From NCBI RefSeq assembly GCF_900184735.1, contig NZ_LT855386.1, forward strand, positions 580,988 through 644,987: a DNA stretch of 64,000 nucleotides, given 5' to 3'. Source of the DNA: Paucisalibacillus globulus (lineage in GTDB: Bacteria > Bacillota > Bacilli > Bacillales > Amphibacillaceae). Of the stretch, positions 521-16,996 are shown in pieces. The notes beneath the pieces are model-generated. The model worked only from the letters and a program-made list of their open reading frames with translations, was not told where the DNA came from and made no database searches. Each line of letters starts with the position of its first letter. Positions within the stretch are counted from its first letter, which is position 1. The position numbers and the translations under genes are program-made.

Positions 521-898
521 ATGCATGGAACTATATATGAGGCAATTGGTGGATCTGAGACAATTGATCGCCTAGTCACTCACTTTTATAAAAGAGTTGG
601 GAAACATCCGAAATTAATTCCAATCTTCCCAGAAGATTTAACAGAAACAGCAAGAAAACAACGTCTTTTCCTAACTCAATTTTTCGGTGGCCCAAGACTT
701 TATACGGAAGAACGTGGTCACCCCATGATGCGACGCAGACATTTACCATTCGAAATTACACCTTCTAGAAGAGACGCTTGGTTAGAATGTATGGAGCAAG
801 CTTTGGAAGAAGCAAAAATTGATGAACCCTATCGTTCAGCCATATTTGAAAGACTAACCATGACCGCCAATCATATGATGAATACACCTGAATCATGA
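521..898 (+). CDS. yjbI: Group II truncated hemoglobin YjbI
   Basis: A 125-residue protein of the usual length for group II (trHbO-type) 2-on-2 globins. The E/F region carries [20 protein letters not shown] followed by HLPFEI, which contains the proximal histidine and is typical of YjbI. These small heme proteins bind O2 very tightly; in Bacillus the gene is adjacent to spxH and has been linked to redox stress. The start has a GAGGAG ribosome site about 9 bases upstream. Its stop overlaps the apparent ATG of the next ORF, so it is translationally linked to spxH. Confidence 0.93.
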
Positions 899-912
899 AA
901 GGAGATATCGAT

Positions 913-1806
913 GTGAGTTGGGAACGCACTGAGCTATTAAGAAGCTCACAGAAAGCAAACACATCGTCCGAATATAGTTATGGTACTATCAAAAAACCAA
1001 TTGAAATTTATTTATTTATCGACCCGATGTGCCCGGAATGCTGGTCACTTGAGCCGTATTTAAAAAAGCTATCAATTGAATATGGACGATTTTTTTCAAT
1101 TAGACCAATTATTTCAGGATCTTCGAAACCACTTAATCATGATAATTTTGACCAACCAAGGAAACTAAGAGAAATTTGGGAACGAACTGCTTCTAGGACT
1201 GGAATGAGTTGTGATGGTGACTTATGGATTGAGAATCCTATACACTCACCAATTACTGCCTATTTAGCAGTAAAAGCTGCTGAACTACAAGGAATTCGTT
1301 TCGGAAAAGTGTTCTTACGAAAAGTACAAGAAAGTCTATTTTTAAAGAAACAAAATATATCTGATGAAAAAGTTCTCTTAGAATGTGCGAAAGAAGCAAA
1401 ACTAGACATTCAGGAGTTTATAAATGACCTACACTCTGTTTCTGCTAAAAAAGCCTTACAAAGCGACTATAAACTGAATGAAGAAATGGAAATTGATTAT
1501 ATGCCTACCATGGTCTTTTTCCATAAAAACATTGAAGAACAAGGAATAAAAATTTCTGGGCTCTATCCATATGATATTTATGTTCGTGTGTTAAGTGAGA
1601 TGGTAGAACATCTACCAATTCCATCACAACTTCCAGCACTAGAGGATTTTGTTCAACACTATGACGTTATTGGAACAAAAGAGGTTTCAGTGGTTTATAA
1701 CTGGTCTATGGAGAAAGCTGAGCGTGAAATGAAAAAACTACGTTTAAAACAATATGTAAAAAAAATCCCGGCAAAACACGGTTCATTCTGGCAATATATA
1801 AAATAA
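913..1806 (+). CDS. spxH: ClpXP adaptor SpxH (YjbH), DsbA-like
   Basis: Adaptor that delivers the redox regulator Spx to ClpXP for degradation. It has a DsbA/thioredoxin-like fold with an N-terminal CPEC pair (residues 40 and 43) in the family context [14 protein letters not shown]. An upstream in-frame ATG at 895 overlaps the yjbI stop, but it lies before the strong AAAGGAG site (898-904). I therefore take GTG at 913, 8 bases after that site, giving 297 residues, close to the family length. It forms an operon with yjbI. Its partner gene spx is in the same window at 6846-7241. The only ambiguity is the start. Confidence 0.9.
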
Positions 1807-1852: not shown

Positions 1853-2070
1853 TCACTTCTTTGTATATAACAAAGGGGGATGGGAGAAAGTTTCATGATC
1901 AAACAAAGGGGTTTTGTTTGTGATTCATCTCACATATATAATATAACAAGAGCCCAGTTTTTTTTCAAGAAGTTTGTTATACATTTCACAAATCTGTCAC
2001 TTCTATTCCTTCTTTTGATTACATATATATTAGTAGACCATTATTTATGTAGATAAGGGGGATATGTCAG

Positions 2071-9961: not shown

Positions 9962-10522
9962 TCATTCTTCTATGCGCCTACGGTCAATAAACACATATTG
10001 CAACACATATACAATCATTGAAGCCGTAATAAAGATGAAGCCCCATCCTAGAGTTTTCTGCTGCGTTATTAGATAGTTATTACATAATTGAATAGGAGAA
10101 TCTAGATAAAGCCAGCCCATCAAGGCAAACATAGATAGGTAGTTCAAATAGATAAAAATTTGTCCAACATCTCTTATTTTTGCCCAGCTATCAGCTAATA
10201 ATAGGCCCACTAAAGGTAAACTAATAAATTTGAATACTTCATATTGTGGTAGTGTTAGTGCTTCATCCAACGTTCTCGGAAGCATCCAATACATGGTAAT
10301 AGCAACAATTAATATCATTCCCGGAACTCCATTTTCGTTGATAGCATGAAAGACTTTTGGTGCCTTATAAACAATGTATTTACCTAGAAACCACCCGACT
10401 ACCATTAACAAGGGTAATTGGATAAGCATATGGATAATCATGATGGACTCCATATAACTACGGATTGGAGGGATTATTAATATTAAGTATAGTAAGGCCC
10501 CTATATATAAAGGTTTTCTCAT
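9962..10522 (-). CDS. Multi-pass membrane protein of the heme-copper operon, unknown
   Basis: A 186-residue hydrophobic protein with about five predicted helices (roughly residues 5-20, 27-47, 67-83, 95-110 and 150-175) and a basic C-terminus (DRRRIEE). I recognise no cofactor motif and no named family. It starts 4 bases after the SCO gene with GGAGGG upstream, so it is the fourth gene of the CuA/heme-copper operon. By position it may be an accessory or assembly subunit, but sequence alone does not show this. A single His pair (FHAI, IHML) could be heme ligands, which is speculation. Confidence 0.7.
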   Translation of the reverse strand: MRKPLYIGALLYLILIIPPIRSYMESIMIIHMLIQLPLLMVVGWFLGKYIVYKAPKVFHAINENGVPGMILIVAITMYWMLPRTLDEALTLPQYEVFKFISLPLVGLLLADSWAKIRDVGQIFIYLNYLSMFALMGWLYLDSPIQLCNNYLITQQKTLGWGFIFITASMIVYVLQYVFIDRRRIEE

Positions 10523-10526
10523 ATAA

Positions 10527-11159
10527 CTATCCCTCCATATTATTTTGAATCACCTCAACAACTTTATGAGCCGCTTCTTCTGGTTGTTGAAAGTCTAATA
10601 TGTCCAGTAATTCCCCATCTGTTCCTACGAAATAGAAAGCTGAATTATGAGTAAAGCCACCACTTCCATCAGGTATTACGATGACACCGAATTCATCTAA
10701 CAAAGCTGTCAATTCAACTTCATCCATAATCCTAGCCATCCTCCAAGTATCACCATCACTATTAAATAATGCTTGATACTTTTCTAATGTAGCCGGATCA
10801 TCTCGTTTTGGGTCGAAACTTATACTCAAGAATATGATTTCTTTTCCTAATAGTTCAGCAGGTATACGTTCATAAACCTTAGCAAGATTCATCTCTAACT
10901 TTGGACATACATCTGTACAAGCAGTGTATATAAAGGTCAGGAGGACATATTTCCCCTGAAACATGGTGAAAGGATAGGTTCTCTCCTTGCTATCTTCTAA
11001 GGTGACATTTGGAAAAAGGGGCTTCTCCTCCATTAACCTGTACACTCTTGCGCTCTCAGCTGTAAATGCCTGAAACCCATTCGTTCCAATAAAAAATAAA
11101 ATAAAACTTATAACCAAGCTAAAACAGATTAGTAACAGATTATGCAGTCTTTTGTTCAT
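10527..11159 (-). CDS. SCO1/SenC family copper chaperone
   Basis: Membrane-anchored thioredoxin-fold protein that matures the CuA centre of cytochrome oxidases and CuA-containing NO reductases. An N-terminal anchor (about residues 7-24) is followed by the SCO copper motif TACTDVCP (C81 and C85) and the conserved distal histidine in FTHNSAFYFVG. The length of 210 residues is normal. It overlaps the 3' end of the subunit I gene by 20 bases and precedes the unknown membrane protein by 4 bases, so the four genes form one operon. The nearby CuA subunit II is its likely client. Confidence 0.92.
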   Translation of the reverse strand: MNKRLHNLLLICFSLVISFILFFIGTNGFQAFTAESARVYRLMEEKPLFPNVTLEDSKERTYPFTMFQGKYVLLTFIYTACTDVCPKLEMNLAKVYERIPAELLGKEIIFLSISFDPKRDDPATLEKYQALFNSDGDTWRMARIMDEVELTALLDEFGVIVIPDGSGGFTHNSAFYFVGTDGELLDILDFQQPEEAAHKVVEVIQNNMEG

Positions 11160-12621
11160 ATTTATCGCTTCCTAGTTTTCCTCTATTCTTCATATAACGC
11201 ACGAAATGGATAATGAAAATAGTAGTGGCAATAACTAGAAATACACCGGCAATTGCACCGAATACAGCTGGAGTCATCCAACCTGGATAATGAATCGCCC
11301 ATCGTCTAGGGGTGCTTAGAGCCCCTGAGACTAGGAACTGAACACTAATAGAAATCATTGCGAGCGCATAACACCATAAAGCAATCCTATCAATCTTAGA
11401 TTCTTTAACCGTACTATCTACTTTTGCTAAATAATACATAAAGGAGAATAACATGACTACTGCGCCAAGTCCCATATACATGTGAAAATGTCCAGGTACC
11501 CATTTCGTATTATGCATGACATGGTTGACAACGATTGTAGCATCTACAATAGCCGGAACGACACCAACAGTCCAACCGAACATAGACAGAAATGCTAACC
11601 CAGATCCCATATCCCATTTAATTCCTGATTTGTGCACAATCATTAACGCTCCATATGCTGTTACAACTAACACCGGTAAACCATTCGCATAAGATAAAGC
11701 CTGTCCCATAATTAGCATCCATTTTGGCATAGCAAAATCCATTAACATATGATGAGTATAGATAACTAACGTAAATGCTGTTGACATTGTCCACGCAATG
11801 AGGAAGACTCTATTCACTACCCATTTACGATTGGTATATTTCGGTAATAATTCGTACACTACAATAACAGCCATATAGATTATTGCATTAGCAAATATAT
11901 GTCCAAAAGCATACGTTAAGTTTTTAGCTAGCATCGGATCAAACGTGAATGATGGGTTGATTACATTAATAATATTCATAATGAGAACTGCTGCTCCTGC
12001 TAGGATTGCAGTTGTATTCACTATTGTTACCATGGTACTAGCAACAACGGCTTTTGGCGGTGCATCTTCTTCTTTCTTCTTACCAGAGATAACATCCCAC
12101 CCTAGACCTTTGCCAAGACTTCCATATTTTTTAATAATTGCTCTTCCTGTATCCATATATAAAAGCAAGAATCCCGTACCTAGAATTAACATTCCAAATA
12201 AATATAATAGTGCCCCAATAGTACCCCAAGCGCTAGCAGATATAGTAGGTAATGGATATAAGAACGTCCATGCACCAGCAAATTCAAATGAAAATACACC
12301 AATAACTACTAAGATCACTCCAATAATAACTAATCCTAAAAACCAATTAAATATGCTTCTTGAAAGTTCAACATATTGGTTCAAGAAATACCACATTACT
12401 CCTGCTGCTGCTAGTGCTGCTGCACCAATCATCCCAGTTCCATGGATTGTTAAGAATTGGTAGAACATAGCATCTGGCACGTCAATTACTCCACCTTGTG
12501 CAAGAAGCATTAATATCCCGAATATCATCATAACAGCAATGATTACGCCACCAATTGTTAAAGAAGTTGCTACTGTCTTATTAGTTGACTTCAAATTATT
12601 CATTCCAACAAAAGCACCCAT
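11140..12621 (-). CDS. Heme-copper oxidase-family subunit I with Asn for Tyr
   Basis: A 493-residue protein with about 12 membrane helices. Seen directly: low-spin heme ligand H60 (TIHGTGM), CuB ligand H241 in GHIFAN, CuB ligands H290-H291 (YTHHM), and heme ligands H378 and H380 (HNTKWVPGHFHMY). The WVPGHFH context is like B-type (ba3) enzymes. O2-reducing A and B types have H-x3-Y here, with the Tyr cross-linked to the His; this protein has N245. cNOR/qNOR enzymes have H-x3-E, so it is neither. Alternative NO reductases with a CuA subunit and a replaced Tyr are known (CuANOR and related families). I infer a non-canonical oxidase or NO reductase. The start has AAAGGAG upstream. Confidence 0.85.
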   Translation of the reverse strand: MGAFVGMNNLKSTNKTVATSLTIGGVIIAVMMIFGILMLLAQGGVIDVPDAMFYQFLTIHGTGMIGAAALAAAGVMWYFLNQYVELSRSIFNWFLGLVIIGVILVVIGVFSFEFAGAWTFLYPLPTISASAWGTIGALLYLFGMLILGTGFLLLYMDTGRAIIKKYGSLGKGLGWDVISGKKKEEDAPPKAVVASTMVTIVNTTAILAGAAVLIMNIINVINPSFTFDPMLAKNLTYAFGHIFANAIIYMAVIVVYELLPKYTNRKWVVNRVFLIAWTMSTAFTLVIYTHHMLMDFAMPKWMLIMGQALSYANGLPVLVVTAYGALMIVHKSGIKWDMGSGLAFLSMFGWTVGVVPAIVDATIVVNHVMHNTKWVPGHFHMYMGLGAVVMLFSFMYYLAKVDSTVKESKIDRIALWCYALAMISISVQFLVSGALSTPRRWAIHYPGWMTPAVFGAIAGVFLVIATTIFIIHFVRYMKNRGKLGSDKYEQKTA

Positions 12622-12638
12622 TTTTGACGCTCCTTTCG

Positions 12639-13163
12639 TTATTCTGTAACCGTGATTTCAGTTACCATATAATGATGCGCGGTTCCACAATATTCTAAGC
12701 AAAGTATTTTGTATGTACCAGGCTTTGTAAACGTAATGTATACATTGTTCGTATACTCTGGCATTGCCTGTGTTTGAGCGATGATTGTCAAATCCTCATC
12801 ATATATGCCAAATCCATGGTTAACATCTTTACTAGTAACATGAAATTCAACTGGTTCCCCCACCTTAAATTCCGTCTCACTCATAAGCCAACCAAATTGA
12901 ACTGCCTCTACATCTACAATCGTTGGATCTTGAGCTTCCCCATAAATTGGTAAGTCATAAGGTAATTCACGTAATGTGTAAATACAAACCACCAATAATA
13001 TGGTAACTAAAGTTGTCGCATAGAAAATTCTTGCTTTATACCATTTTTTCTTAATGTGCTCATAGTCACTCTTAACCCTTGACTTCCATGCTACTACTCC
13101 AAAAACAATGAAAACTAGTGACATAAAAACTAGGCTTGTAACCCAGGCTGCTGTTTGAACCAT
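12639..13163 (-). CDS. CuA subunit II of heme-copper enzyme
   Basis: Electron-entry subunit. Two N-terminal hydrophobic segments (about residues 5-25 and 45-65) are followed by an external cupredoxin domain. All CuA ligands are visible: H116 (VNHGFGIY), C155 and C159 in CLEYCGTAHHYM, H163 and M166, with the acidic residue between the cysteines that bridges in the family. It is short (174 residues), like ba3-type subunit II, and has no fused cytochrome c. It starts the operon and lies 17 bases upstream of subunit I. A probable FNR-controlled promoter lies upstream. Confidence 0.92.
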   Translation of the reverse strand: MVQTAAWVTSLVFMSLVFIVFGVVAWKSRVKSDYEHIKKKWYKARIFYATTLVTILLVVCIYTLRELPYDLPIYGEAQDPTIVDVEAVQFGWLMSETEFKVGEPVEFHVTSKDVNHGFGIYDEDLTIIAQTQAMPEYTNNVYITFTKPGTYKILCLEYCGTAHHYMVTEITVTE

Positions 13164-13206: not shown

Positions 13207-13249
13207 ATCATATCTACATACACAATACAAACCTGTGAGAAAAGTCACA
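13207..13249 (-). promoter_or_regulatory. FNR-type operator and leftward -10 of oxidase operon
   Basis: TGTGAGAAAAGTCACA (13234-13249) is an exact match to the Bacillus Fnr consensus TGTGA-N6-TCACA. On the minus strand a -10-like TATGAT lies at 13212-13207. This would put the start point near 13200, with the palindrome centred at -41.5, the classic position for FNR activation. No good -35 is present, which also fits activation. The site lies in the divergent spacer, so it could also affect the PQQ dehydrogenase gene (centre about -46 to -50 from its possible start points). The match is seen; the function is inferred. Confidence 0.72.
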
Positions 13250-13351
13250 ATGAAAATAAAAAATTAGGGATTTTTAACTATAAAAGATTAATTTGTAATT
13301 ATACGGGCAAATTACAGAAGAACTGTTATATCTTAAGAAAGGAGTATGAAA

Positions 13352-15604
13352 ATGGATAAACAAATGTGGATTGTAATTGCTGCTGTTGCACTCTTAACAG
13401 TAGTAGGATTCTTTGCTTTTCAAAATATGGCAGAAGATGATACCACAGAACCTCCAGCTGAAGAGAATCTGGCTGAGGATGAAAAAGCAGCTGAAAATGA
13501 AGAGTCTGAATCTACCCAAACACCAAAAGAAGACCACACTGCTGTTCAACACTCAGAATATCAAGGTGAGATAGCACCAGAATTTTCTTCAGAAGACTTA
13601 CTTAAACCACCAAGTACAAATTGGATTACACATGGTGGAGACATGTACAATCGTAGATACTCCACATTAGAAAAAATCAATACTTCTAATGTAGCTGATC
13701 TAAAGCTTGAGTGGGTTACTAGTTTAGGTTCTGGCTTAGAGTTTAAATACTCTGCTGAGGCAACTCCACTTGTATATGATGGCATTATGTTTAATATTAC
13801 GGGTGCTGATGTTGTACAAGCGATGGATGCTACAACTGGAGAGATTATTTGGGAATATGTCCCGCAATTAGCAGACGGCCTAGACACTGCATGTTGTGGA
13901 TGGATTAGCCGTGGTGTAGGACTTGGAGATGGGAAAGTGTATGTAGGTCTCCTTGATTCAAGACTAGTTGCTCTAGACCAAAAAACAGGAAAAGTTGTAT
14001 GGGAAACAACAGTCGATGATTGGGAAAAAGGTTACACGATTACCGCAGCTCCTCTCTATCATGATGATAAAGTATATATCGGTGTTGCGGGTGGTGAATA
14101 TGGTATTCGTGGCTATCTGGCAGCGTATGATGCAGATATGGGACGGGAAATATGGCGTACATATACAGTCCCTGGTCCAGGTGAAGTGGGTCACGATACA
14201 TGGCCTCAGGAAACGGATGCATGGCTTAAGGGCGGTGCGCCAATCTGGCAAACACCAGCCATTGATCCAGAATTAAATATGATCTACTTATCAACAGGTA
14301 ATCCATCACCAGATTTCGATGGAAGTCAACGTGAAGGTGATAATCTATTCTCTGCTTCCATCTTGGCATTAGATTTAACTACAGGTGAGTATAAATGGCA
14401 TTTCCAAGAAGTGAAACATGATATATGGGATATGGATGCTCCTAACCCAGTTATACTATTTGATGTTGAAATGGATGGAGAGACACGAAAAGGACTTGGA
14501 CAGGCAGGTAAAACTGGATGGGTTTATTTACTGGATAGATCGAATGGTGAACCACTTGTTGGAATTGAGGACAAACCGGTTCCACAGGATGAAAGACAAA
14601 AAACAGCAGAAACCCAACCATACCCTGTTGGGGATAGTTTTGTACCTCAATCTATAACCGAAGAAATGCTTAAAGAAGATCTTGGTGAAGACTTTGAATA
14701 CCAGGTTGCAGACATATTTACACCTTTCTGGGATGAACCAGTAACAATTACTCCTTCACCACAAGGTGGTGCCAACTGGCCACCATCAGCGTATAACCCA
14801 GAAACAGAGTTATTTTATGTATTAGGAAACTGGACTTACTTTGCATTTGCACATTATGAGGGCGATGAAGCAAATGAATATAAAGAAGGACAGAACTGGA
14901 TAGGTAGTGTTATGCAGCCAATTCAAAATGCGCCGAACCGAGGAACCGTCACCGCAATTGATGTAAAAACAAATAAAATAGTTTGGCAAAAACAATGGGA
15001 TGACCTTGCTTATAGTGGCGTTCTAACAACTAGTGGGGACCTCGTATTTGTGGGTCATAATGATGGAAGAATCATTGCATATGATGCAACAAATGGTGAA
15101 CAGCTTTGGGAATTCATGACCGATGCTGGTGCAAATGCTCCACCAATGACATATGAAGTGGATGGAAAACAATATATATCCATCTTCTCTGGAGGAAACT
15201 CCCTTGCTGGTACACAACATGGTGATAAGATTTACACCTTCTCCTTAGAAGGACAATATGCTACATTAGAAGATGTTCCAGATGATGGAATAAATTCATC
15301 ACCATTCTTTAAAGATACCGATAATGAGAACGGCCAAGGACAAACAGAAGCTCCTGAGGGTGACGCAGTTGTTCAAGAAGGCTTGAAGATTTATGAAAAC
15401 AACTGTCTAGCTTGTCATGGTGCAGAAGGGGTTGGAGGTCACAACGGACCGAAGCTTAACAATCTCGACTGGACGAAAGAAGAATTAATAGCACAAGTTA
15501 AGAACGGTAGCGGAAATATGCCTCCATTCGAAGGAAGCTTGTCTGAAGAGGAAATAAATGCCGTAGTAGAATATTTAGAATCACTCATCAACAAGGATAA
15601 GTAA
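13352..15604 (+). CDS. PQQ-dependent alcohol dehydrogenase fused to cytochrome c
   Basis: An N-terminal membrane anchor (about residues 6-24) and an acidic Pro/Glu linker (30-70) precede a beta-propeller quinoprotein domain (about 85-640). PQQ-enzyme marks are the adjacent cysteines C181-C182 (TACCGWISRG), GGEYGIRGY with the metal-binding Glu, GNPSPDF with Asn, and the catalytic-Asp region DIWDMDAPN (from D357). A C-terminal class I cytochrome c has CLACH (685-689) and a distal Met in NMPPFEG. It would oxidise an alcohol outside the membrane and pass electrons through its own heme. I chose ATG 13352, not 13346, from the AAGGAG spacing. It diverges from the oxidase operon. Confidence 0.9.
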   Translation: MDKQMWIVIAAVALLTVVGFFAFQNMAEDDTTEPPAEENLAEDEKAAENEESESTQTPKEDHTAVQHSEYQGEIAPEFSSEDLLKPPSTNWITHGGDMYNRRYSTLEKINTSNVADLKLEWVTSLGSGLEFKYSAEATPLVYDGIMFNITGADVVQAMDATTGEIIWEYVPQLADGLDTACCGWISRGVGLGDGKVYVGLLDSRLVALDQKTGKVVWETTVDDWEKGYTITAAPLYHDDKVYIGVAGGEYGIRGYLAAYDADMGREIWRTYTVPGPGEVGHDTWPQETDAWLKGGAPIWQTPAIDPELNMIYLSTGNPSPDFDGSQREGDNLFSASILALDLTTGEYKWHFQEVKHDIWDMDAPNPVILFDVEMDGETRKGLGQAGKTGWVYLLDRSNGEPLVGIEDKPVPQDERQKTAETQPYPVGDSFVPQSITEEMLKEDLGEDFEYQVADIFTPFWDEPVTITPSPQGGANWPPSAYNPETELFYVLGNWTYFAFAHYEGDEANEYKEGQNWIGSVMQPIQNAPNRGTVTAIDVKTNKIVWQKQWDDLAYSGVLTTSGDLVFVGHNDGRIIAYDATNGEQLWEFMTDAGANAPPMTYEVDGKQYISIFSGGNSLAGTQHGDKIYTFSLEGQYATLEDVPDDGINSSPFFKDTDNENGQGQTEAPEGDAVVQEGLKIYENNCLACHGAEGVGGHNGPKLNNLDWTKEELIAQVKNGSGNMPPFEGSLSEEEINAVVEYLESLINKDK

Positions 15605-15658: not shown

Positions 15659-16804
15659 TTAGTTAGCGGATGTTTTTTCCACTAATGGGATATGAATCAA
15701 GCGATCATCTTTATCCGTTGGTTCTCCGCGACTGTCATGATTACTTGTTACAACATATAACGCATCGTCTTCTATGAATACGTCACGCATTCTTCCAGCT
15801 TCATCATAGAAATCTGCCACTGTCTCTGTAGCTATGTCATAAGTAAAGATCTTCTTACCAGCCAAGGAAGCAATGTATAGTTTACCATCACTGAATCCGA
15901 CCCCTGAAGGTGCCCATGTAGTTTCACCGGAATGAATTAAAGGAGATTCCATTCCCTCAGCCTCTTCATCTCCTTGAATCTCTGGCCAGCCATAATTCTT
16001 ACCCGATTTAATTAGGTTAATTTCATCATGCCCATCTTCACCATGTTCTGAAGAGTACATATTTCCATCATTGTCCCAAGTAAATCCTTGAGCATTCCTG
16101 TGTCCGTACGAGAATACATACGAATCTTCAAAAGGATTGTCAGATGGGATGTCACCGTTAAGTTCCATACGTAAAATTTTACCCGCTAAACTATTTAAAT
16201 CCTGTGCCAAGTCATTTTTTCCAACATCACCAGTAGCAACATAAAGTTTCTCATCCGGCCCAATTGCAATTCTACCACCAGTATCTTTTTCCCCTCCAGG
16301 GATATTATCAAAAATAACCTCTTGTTCCTTCCATGTAGAACCATCTAATACTAGTGACACAATGCGGTTCACAATTTCACCGTCTTTATCATACGTATGA
16401 TAAGCAAATGCTTCATTAGATTCTTCAAAATTTGGCGCTAAAGCAAACCCAAGAAATCCCGCTTCTCCTTTATGGAAGATCTCTTCAGATAAATCTACAT
16501 CCTGTACATCTACTATGCCAAAGTCACCATCAATTTCTACTACAGTTCCATCGCGTTGACTTAAATAGAATGTACCTCCTGTTTTGTTAATCGTCCAAGG
16601 AATAAAAAGCTTATTAGCATTAATATTGCCATCATCTGTTGCGGTAACCTCGATTGATTCCTCGAAGACTTGAACTGCCTCTGGATCATTTTTTTGTTCC
16701 TGATTGGCTTCATTCTCTTTTGAATCATCACCATTTACGAATAGGAATACAAGTGCGGCAACTAAGAGTACTCCTATCAAACTAATAAAACCATATTTTT
16801 TCAA
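15659..16804 (-). CDS. PQQ-dependent sugar dehydrogenase (GSDH family)
   Basis: A secreted or membrane-anchored six-bladed propeller of the glucose/sorbosone dehydrogenase family. An N-terminal hydrophobic segment (about residues 6-22) and an acidic linker precede the domain. Family motifs include GEAGFLGFALAPNF, GGRIAIGPDEKLYVATGD, SLAGKILRMELNG, YGHRNAQGFTWD, SSEHGEDGHDEINLI and NYGWPEI. These bind PQQ and calcium and include the catalytic His of GHRNAQG. I prefer TTG at 16804 because GTG at 16813 lies inside the GAGGTGA ribosome site. It converges on the PQQ alcohol dehydrogenase. No PQQ biosynthesis genes are in the window. Confidence 0.88.
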   Translation of the reverse strand: MKKYGFISLIGVLLVAALVFLFVNGDDSKENEANQEQKNDPEAVQVFEESIEVTATDDGNINANKLFIPWTINKTGGTFYLSQRDGTVVEIDGDFGIVDVQDVDLSEEIFHKGEAGFLGFALAPNFEESNEAFAYHTYDKDGEIVNRIVSLVLDGSTWKEQEVIFDNIPGGEKDTGGRIAIGPDEKLYVATGDVGKNDLAQDLNSLAGKILRMELNGDIPSDNPFEDSYVFSYGHRNAQGFTWDNDGNMYSSEHGEDGHDEINLIKSGKNYGWPEIQGDEEAEGMESPLIHSGETTWAPSGVGFSDGKLYIASLAGKKIFTYDIATETVADFYDEAGRMRDVFIEDDALYVVTSNHDSRGEPTDKDDRLIHIPLVEKTSAN

Positions 16805-16996
16805 ATCTTTCACCTCTTAATTTTTTTCTTCGTTTAAAAGACGAAGTAATATATATAAGGTATTATTTCCAAAATTTTGTAGCTTATACATATTTTCATA
16901 GAATGAATAGTATTTTCACAGAATTGAAGACTTAGATAAATCATTTTTATCCAAATGAAACTGAGGTATGTTATCCATTTCTACTTATTGATCCAC

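Follow-up and report, generated by a model that had tools for sequence, protein, structure and literature searches.

The 64,000-nucleotide stretch of the Paucisalibacillus globulus genome analyzed here (contig NZ_LT855386.1, positions 580,988 to 644,987; hereafter the window) carries a four-gene operon for a CuA subunit, a catalytic heme-copper subunit, an SCO protein and a small membrane protein. We consider it likely that this is an sNOR operon of a probable truncated denitrifier, and that its product joins two molecules of nitric oxide (NO) to nitrous oxide (N2O). The enzyme is an sNOR, earlier called "type II qCuANOR", from a recognized but little-studied class of probable NO reductases; the family itself is not new, and the window enzyme is a good member of it. 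A c-type cytochrome or a small copper protein would donate electrons to CuA, which would hand them over to the low-spin heme and so to the heme/CuB site, where two NO would be converted to N2O. Gene order, residues, conservation, a promoter box and co-occurrence were read directly from the DNA and its translations, and from these we infer substrate, electron donor, proton route and regulation.

Family assignment

Excerpts of PMC3475470 describe two qCuANOR types in Bacillus (now Schinkia) azotoformans LMG 9581. "Type I" is the purified enzyme. The "type II" cluster, predicted in 2012, has Asn at the site of the cross-linked tyrosine and 12 rather than 13 helices; its CuA subunit begins with two helices, and genes for SenC and a membrane protein are linked to it. 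We recovered the type II locus of Schinkia azotoformans LMG 9581 (L029, contig40; BAZO_04695-04710), which is 60% identical to the window in subunit I and 53% in the CuA subunit. The gene order (CuA subunit, subunit I, SenC, membrane protein) is identical, the Asn, the 12 helices, the short C-terminus and the two N-terminal helices of the CuA subunit are shared, and we saw no difference of kind. S. azotoformans adds Glu-bearing qNOR-type proteins, whereas a PF00115 search of the window genome gave none. Naming varies in the literature: in excerpts of PMC11388526 the purified enzyme, once CuANOR, goes by the name bNOR, and sNOR denotes a further proposed class in Bacillota, while a passage of PMC3475470 gives "sNOR" to type I.

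An earlier reading of the window from its letters (the sequence-only reading) had proposed either one of the alternative CuA-containing NO reductase-type families or an undescribed variant. The first proposal stands, with sNOR as the family; the second is ruled out by the type II match and by an operon in Ruegeria pomeroyi, a genus that we take to be the former Silicibacter. There, a protein search of plasmids found a megaplasmid-borne subunit I with 45% identity over 466 residues, and all four genes stand in the window order, with Asn at the same site. The genus is among the sNOR hosts in an excerpt of PMC8756737, a list that includes Silicibacter and Geobacillus and names no locus. Upstream of the Ruegeria operon lies an Rrf2 regulator, best matched among equivalogs by the NO sensor NsrR (100.8 bits, below the cut-off of 182), in contrast to the CRP/FNR-type box of the window; downstream lies a formate/nitrite transporter. 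The published gene order norSY-senC-orf1 of Nitrosomonas (excerpt of PMC3764937) is also that of the window. The order is shared by Nitrosococcus oceani as well, where locus tags place NsrR (Noc2967) close to SenC-NorY-NorS (Noc2969-2971; excerpt of PMC3772326). Outside Bacillota sNOR is sparse, with matches at E <= 1e-15 in four of 299 Pseudomonadota genomes (G003 counted in). A check for ammonia oxidizers gave no AMO match in any of these four, but as its control gave no match either, this negative carries no information.

Six peptide patterns, all of them lying outside the Asn245 site discussed below, retrieved 93 relatives of the window enzyme, and the best 80 were kept. A tree with 31 of these 80 loci unites all sNOR rows, including the window, in one clade (support 100/100). 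The bNOR rows, four in number, make up a separate clade next to the B-type oxidases (100/99), and the window lies outside it. The tree thus favors a separate origin of the Asn in sNOR and bNOR, while a joint sNOR and bNOR clade is not rejected (approximately unbiased test, p 0.098). Alignment A1 comprised the window together with 30 of the 80 relatives' loci and a further five heme-copper loci; L072, with a stop in the matched stretch, was omitted.

Three relatives deserve mention in their own right. Two loci titled Arthrobacter beigongshangensis (L019) and Pseudomonas sp. ISL-84 (L077) carry Bacillaceae-like sNOR genes, respectively 69% and 54% identical to that of the window; L019 groups with Sporosarcina (96/70), L077 is outside the tree sample, and transfer, contamination or a wrong label could account for both. 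A plasmid of Thermomicrobium roseum (L131, 3336..6258) encodes a 32% identical relative with the same Asn, next to a CuA gene with ligand motif and a formate/nitrite transporter; it may represent a deeply branching sNOR or else a sister class.

The active site

Subunit I retains all six metal-ligating histidines (His60, 241, 290, 291, 378 and 380), the CuA subunit has its ligands H116, C155, C159, H163 and M166 as well as E157, and the residue four past the first CuB His is Asn245. The sequence-only reading had named these six histidines and Asn245 and had called the CuA subunit intact, and all three points hold in the alignment and the ligand check. Residues of subunit I are counted from the first ATG, with Met7 as an alternative possible start. 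In the residue alignment, in which 22 heme-copper proteins of other kinds accompany the window and its 80 relatives, this position is Asn in 81 of 81 sNOR rows, so that it is neither chance nor a sequencing slip. The six histidines are kept throughout the family, except that two partial rows have a gap at His60: L084, which lacks its N-terminal part, and another, presumably L067, which is split over two frames and represented by its larger piece only. Of 80 CuA subunits compared (the window and 79 loci), 79 have all five ligands. A CuA-less subtype, implied for B. bataviensis by a passage of PMC3475470, is rejected on this count, since the only incomplete subunit (L056) comes from that strain and is a truncated sequence.

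In the other heme-copper proteins the same column holds Tyr (13/13 A- and B-type rows), Glu (4/4 c/qNOR-type rows), Asn (3/3 bNOR rows) or Gly (2/2 C-type rows), the first two as the sequence-only reading had said. The window protein thus lacks the His-linked Tyr of helix VI that marks the A and B types, the Glu that marks cNOR and qNOR, and the Gln of eNOR and Asp of gNOR given in table A4 of PMC8756737 (excerpt). Loss of the His-linked Tyr would remove the electron and proton donor needed for O2 splitting, and the Asn in its place may free room for a second NO.

A compensating tyrosine of the C-type kind was sought in helix VII, six positions before the His-His pair, where we take the cbb3 tyrosine to lie and where both C-type rows have Tyr. 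This candidate is rejected: the window protein has Thr284, and the 81 rows hold Thr (78) or Val (3). Two other tyrosines near the CuB ligands in sequence are conserved in all 81 rows. Tyr249 follows Asn245 by four positions and the CuB His by eight, at a place where the c/qNOR-type rows have Glu; Tyr288 stands two ahead of the His-His pair, where B-type and bNOR rows have Gly and A-type rows have Trp. Both are shared by the Ruegeria and Thermomicrobium proteins.

The proton channel

As a ruler for the K-channel we used the host's own B-type oxidase (L003) in Thermus ba3 numbering; the sites and the numbering are those we presume to be correct, and the numbering of L003 is off by one. The ba3 Y244 site is Val in 80 of 81 sNOR rows, and the S309 and T312 sites are Val or Ile in all 81. 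B-type O2 reductases, Thermus ba3 among them, share the fold, the six histidines and the CuA partner with the window protein; however, they have the cross-linked Tyr and four K-channel residues, and the window protein lacks the Tyr and three of the four. bNOR shares with the window the CuA subunit, the Asn, the SCO and membrane-protein genes in the operon and a Val at the Y244 site, but S309, T312 and Y248 are kept (3/3 rows), identity is only 23-25%, the C-terminus is longer, Gly replaces Tyr288 and the protein groups with the B-type.

The loss of three of four K-channel sites leads us to predict that sNOR is non-pumping and perhaps non-electrogenic, unlike the companion bNOR. Table A4 of PMC8756737, in the excerpt cited above, lists sNOR with Asn and no proton channel (0). 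The purified CuANOR (bNOR) is reported to be electrogenic and to keep many K-pathway features (excerpt of PMC5826923), and it is by comparison with that enzyme that sNOR is predicted not to be electrogenic. It is conceivable, although we regard it as rather doubtful, that the Asn245/Tyr249 pair fills the helix VI positions of the Glu/Glu pair of c/qNOR, with Tyr288 lining the site from helix VII and protons entering by a new route in place of the lost K-channel. bNOR and sNOR would then be an electrogenic/non-electrogenic pair that reached Asn independently, and sNOR a separate chemical solution to NO reduction. In a genome that encodes both, an Asn-type enzyme that has K-channel residues can be compared directly with one that lacks them, and sNOR is a test case for proton delivery.

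Co-occurrence with NirK

The host genome (3.92 Mb, 99.97% complete) encodes five PF00115 proteins: two A-type oxidases, one Tyr-bearing B-type oxidase, the window sNOR and a bNOR-type Asn enzyme (L004). NarG is present above cut-off (1743.8 bits). No NosZ is found above cut-off in this genome, the best score being 53.6 bits against 625, and each of the seven matches is confined to the CuA domain at the C-terminal end of the profile. There are two NirK-like proteins, one near bNOR and the second on contig C7. The bNOR island (contig C3:538000-556000, L124, outside the window) also holds CuA, SCO, membrane-protein and small-peptide genes, the NirK-like gene, a cupredoxin, a radical SAM protein, a multicopper oxidase, two CRP/FNR-type regulators and four exact TGTGA-N6-TCACA boxes in 18 kb; here the SCO, membrane protein, peptide, cupredoxin, radical SAM protein and multicopper oxidase were named by eye. 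We regard the host as a probable truncated denitrifier of the family Bacillaceae, whose route would run from nitrate to N2O.

Among 154 genomes of the family, 29 encode sNOR (E <= 1e-60) and 35 NirK (E <= 1e-40): both occur in 24, sNOR only in 5, NirK only in 11 and neither in 114. NirK is thus found in 24 of 29 sNOR genomes versus 11 of the 125 others (odds ratio 49.7, Fisher p 4e-15), and counting by genus gives 12 of 13 genera with sNOR versus 4 of 33 without (p 5e-7). bNOR, called at 60% identity or more with the next rows at 53% or less, occurs in 58 of the 154 genomes, including 28 of the 29 with sNOR. The association also holds among these 58 bNOR carriers, where NirK is present in 24 of 28 with sNOR versus 9 of 30 without (p 2e-5). 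In 13 of the 29 sNOR genomes NirK lies on the same strand, 961-1872 bases downstream of sNOR subunit I. At the relatives' loci a CuA gene is found in 79 of 80, a membrane-protein match in 47 and an SCO match in 35, the last two nearly always directly downstream of subunit I. In the excerpts of open-licence literature consulted, no statement was found that links sNOR to nirK or to a CRP/FNR-type box in Bacillaceae. A paper on Schinkia, PMC13274427, contains none of the four NOR terms looked for in it.

The promoter box

The gap of 182 bases before the CuA gene contains an exact palindrome TGTGA-N6-TCACA, which we take to be the consensus of the Fnr/CRP family. Exact boxes number two in the window versus 0.10 expected. 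Within 250 bases upstream of the CuA gene, a box with at most one mismatch is present in 34 of 78 relatives (5 exact), whereas 40 dinucleotide-preserving shuffles averaged 0.4 and never exceeded 2; L084, with no CuA match, and L022, with too little upstream DNA, were omitted from the 80 loci. Transcription of the operon is likely controlled by a regulator of the CRP/FNR family and induced at low O2 or in the presence of NO. Because it is palindromic, the box could also serve a divergent gene for a pyrroloquinoline quinone (PQQ)-dependent dehydrogenase. The other exact box of the window lies 113 bases past genes for a truncated hemoglobin-like and a YjbH-like protein (named by eye), and no open reading frame of at least 100 residues starts beside it.

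Substrate and alternative readings

Published views on the substrate of sNOR conflict. An excerpt of PMC11388526 lists four NOR families as biochemically characterized and does not include sNOR; PMC6967387 uses transcript data to suggest that the sNOR of Nitrosomonas may serve as a high-affinity O2 reductase, and in the same excerpt notes indirect evidence that Nitrococcus mobilis reduces NO with it. An independent argument for NO comes from the NirK association and the promoter box, and NO reduction appears the likelier function of sNOR. The Bacillaceae context speaks for NO, without settling the substrate.

The Nitrosomonas proposal is one of several points that weigh against our assignment. 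No reported activity of a Bacillaceae sNOR was found in the literature excerpts. Both NirK-like proteins of the host score below the NCBI NirK cut-off (201 and 181 versus 296 bits), and the host NirK adjoins bNOR, not sNOR. NirK is missing from 5 of the 29 sNOR genomes, one of which (G095) also lacks bNOR, and lies inside the fetched stretch in only 7 of 80 loci. The p-values given above are only a guide, because the genomes are related and their independence is overstated. For the promoter, boxes with up to two mismatches are not in excess in the window (31 versus 36 in shuffles), and among 3598 control stretches from the same loci, 61 contain a box that is exact (21 stretches) or has no more than one mismatch. 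Finally, the K-channel is not lost altogether, as Y248 is retained as Tyr256 in 80 of 81 sNOR rows.

A protective role is the strongest alternative, though we think it rather unlikely: sNOR would scavenge NO from NirK or the surroundings and hold it harmless, with no energy gain. The chemistry would be that of our favored reading, and the two overlap. A K-channel that is mostly gone would suit a scavenger, bNOR could do the respiratory work in 28 of the 29 sNOR genomes, and a table in an excerpt of PMC3764937 files norSY-senC-orf1 under NO detoxification; the close downstream NirK in 13 of 29 genomes and the FNR-type box, however, point to use in denitrification.

That sNOR is instead a high-affinity O2 reductase for low-O2, NO-rich conditions, with NO reduction as a side activity, seems to us improbable. 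It was proposed for Nitrosomonas europaea, where O2 limitation raised sNOR transcripts 2.7- to 10.8-fold with no significant change for cNOR (excerpt of PMC6967387), and the invariant Tyr249 or Tyr288 could replace the missing tyrosine. Against this stand the loss of the His-linked Tyr and of three of the four K-channel sites, the Thr in the C-type tyrosine column, the strong NirK association, the NsrR-like regulator and nitrite transporter that flank the Ruegeria operon, and the three Tyr-bearing or A-type oxidases that the host already has. A degenerate or misassembled B-type oxidase would account for the missing Tyr and nothing else, and it can practically be dismissed given the Asn in every row, the open frame, the CuA set kept in 79 of 80 subunits and the operon kept in another phylum.

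Annotation of an sNOR operon such as this one is itself a problem. Curated libraries miss the family, as NCBIfam offers only cytochrome oxidase models, whose scores for the window subunit I are far under cut-off (CtaD, 48.6 versus 670.75 bits; SoxB, 38.4 versus 700). KEGG files bNOR and sNOR as coxA (excerpt of PMC11388526), and such genomes can therefore be misread.

Operon layout and neighboring genes

The sequence-only reading had placed the two enzyme genes at 11140-13163, and both were found there, on the minus strand (Table 1).

Table 1. Coordinates of the operon, the boxes and neighboring genes in the window
Feature	Coordinates	Strand	Remarks
CuA subunit II (NorS / CbaB2 type)	12639..13163	-	174 residues; PF00116 match
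Heme-copper subunit I (NorY / CbaA2 type)	11140..12621	-	493 residues from first ATG; PF00115
SCO1/SenC-type protein (senC)	10527..11159	-	PF02630; overlaps the end of subunit I
Small multi-helix membrane protein (CbaC2 / orf1 of norSY-senC-orf1)	9962..10522	-	186 residues
Exact CRP/FNR-type palindrome	13234..13249		before the CuA gene
Other exact box	1919..1934		
Truncated hemoglobin-like gene	521..898		
YjbH-like gene	895..1806		
PQQ-dependent alcohol dehydrogenase	13346..15604	+	C-terminal cytochrome c domain
Glucose/sorbosone dehydrogenase-like gene	15659..16813	-	

Subunit I matches PF00115 (COX1) at 3.9e-44, and the CuA subunit has two N-terminal hydrophobic segments by hydropathy. At E 0.001, neither Pfam nor NCBIfam gave a match for the small membrane protein. 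For both enzyme subunits the top solved sequences are those of the ba3-type oxidase 1ehk and its relatives. The predicted model of subunit I (mean predicted local distance difference test score 83.4, predicted template modeling score 0.85) has 12 helices of at least 20 residues. Its C-terminus extends 113 residues past GHFH, as opposed to 172-176 in one B-type and two bNOR proteins, and is therefore about 60 residues shorter than in the proteins compared. None of the best 50 entries of a structure comparison is titled NO reductase or cbb3, which is not evidence against kinship.

The PQQ dehydrogenase gene is divergent from the operon, and its product scores 485 bits against the NCBI cut-off of 480.05. 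It contains the motif W-D-M-D, with a second Asp two past the likely catalytic Asp, which we take to be typical of lanthanide-dependent members. A functional tie to the sNOR operon was considered and rejected, as only 2 of the 80 loci from relatives have the gene close to sNOR. The glucose/sorbosone dehydrogenase-like gene adjoins the PQQ dehydrogenase gene, and the pair is kept in L060 and L082.

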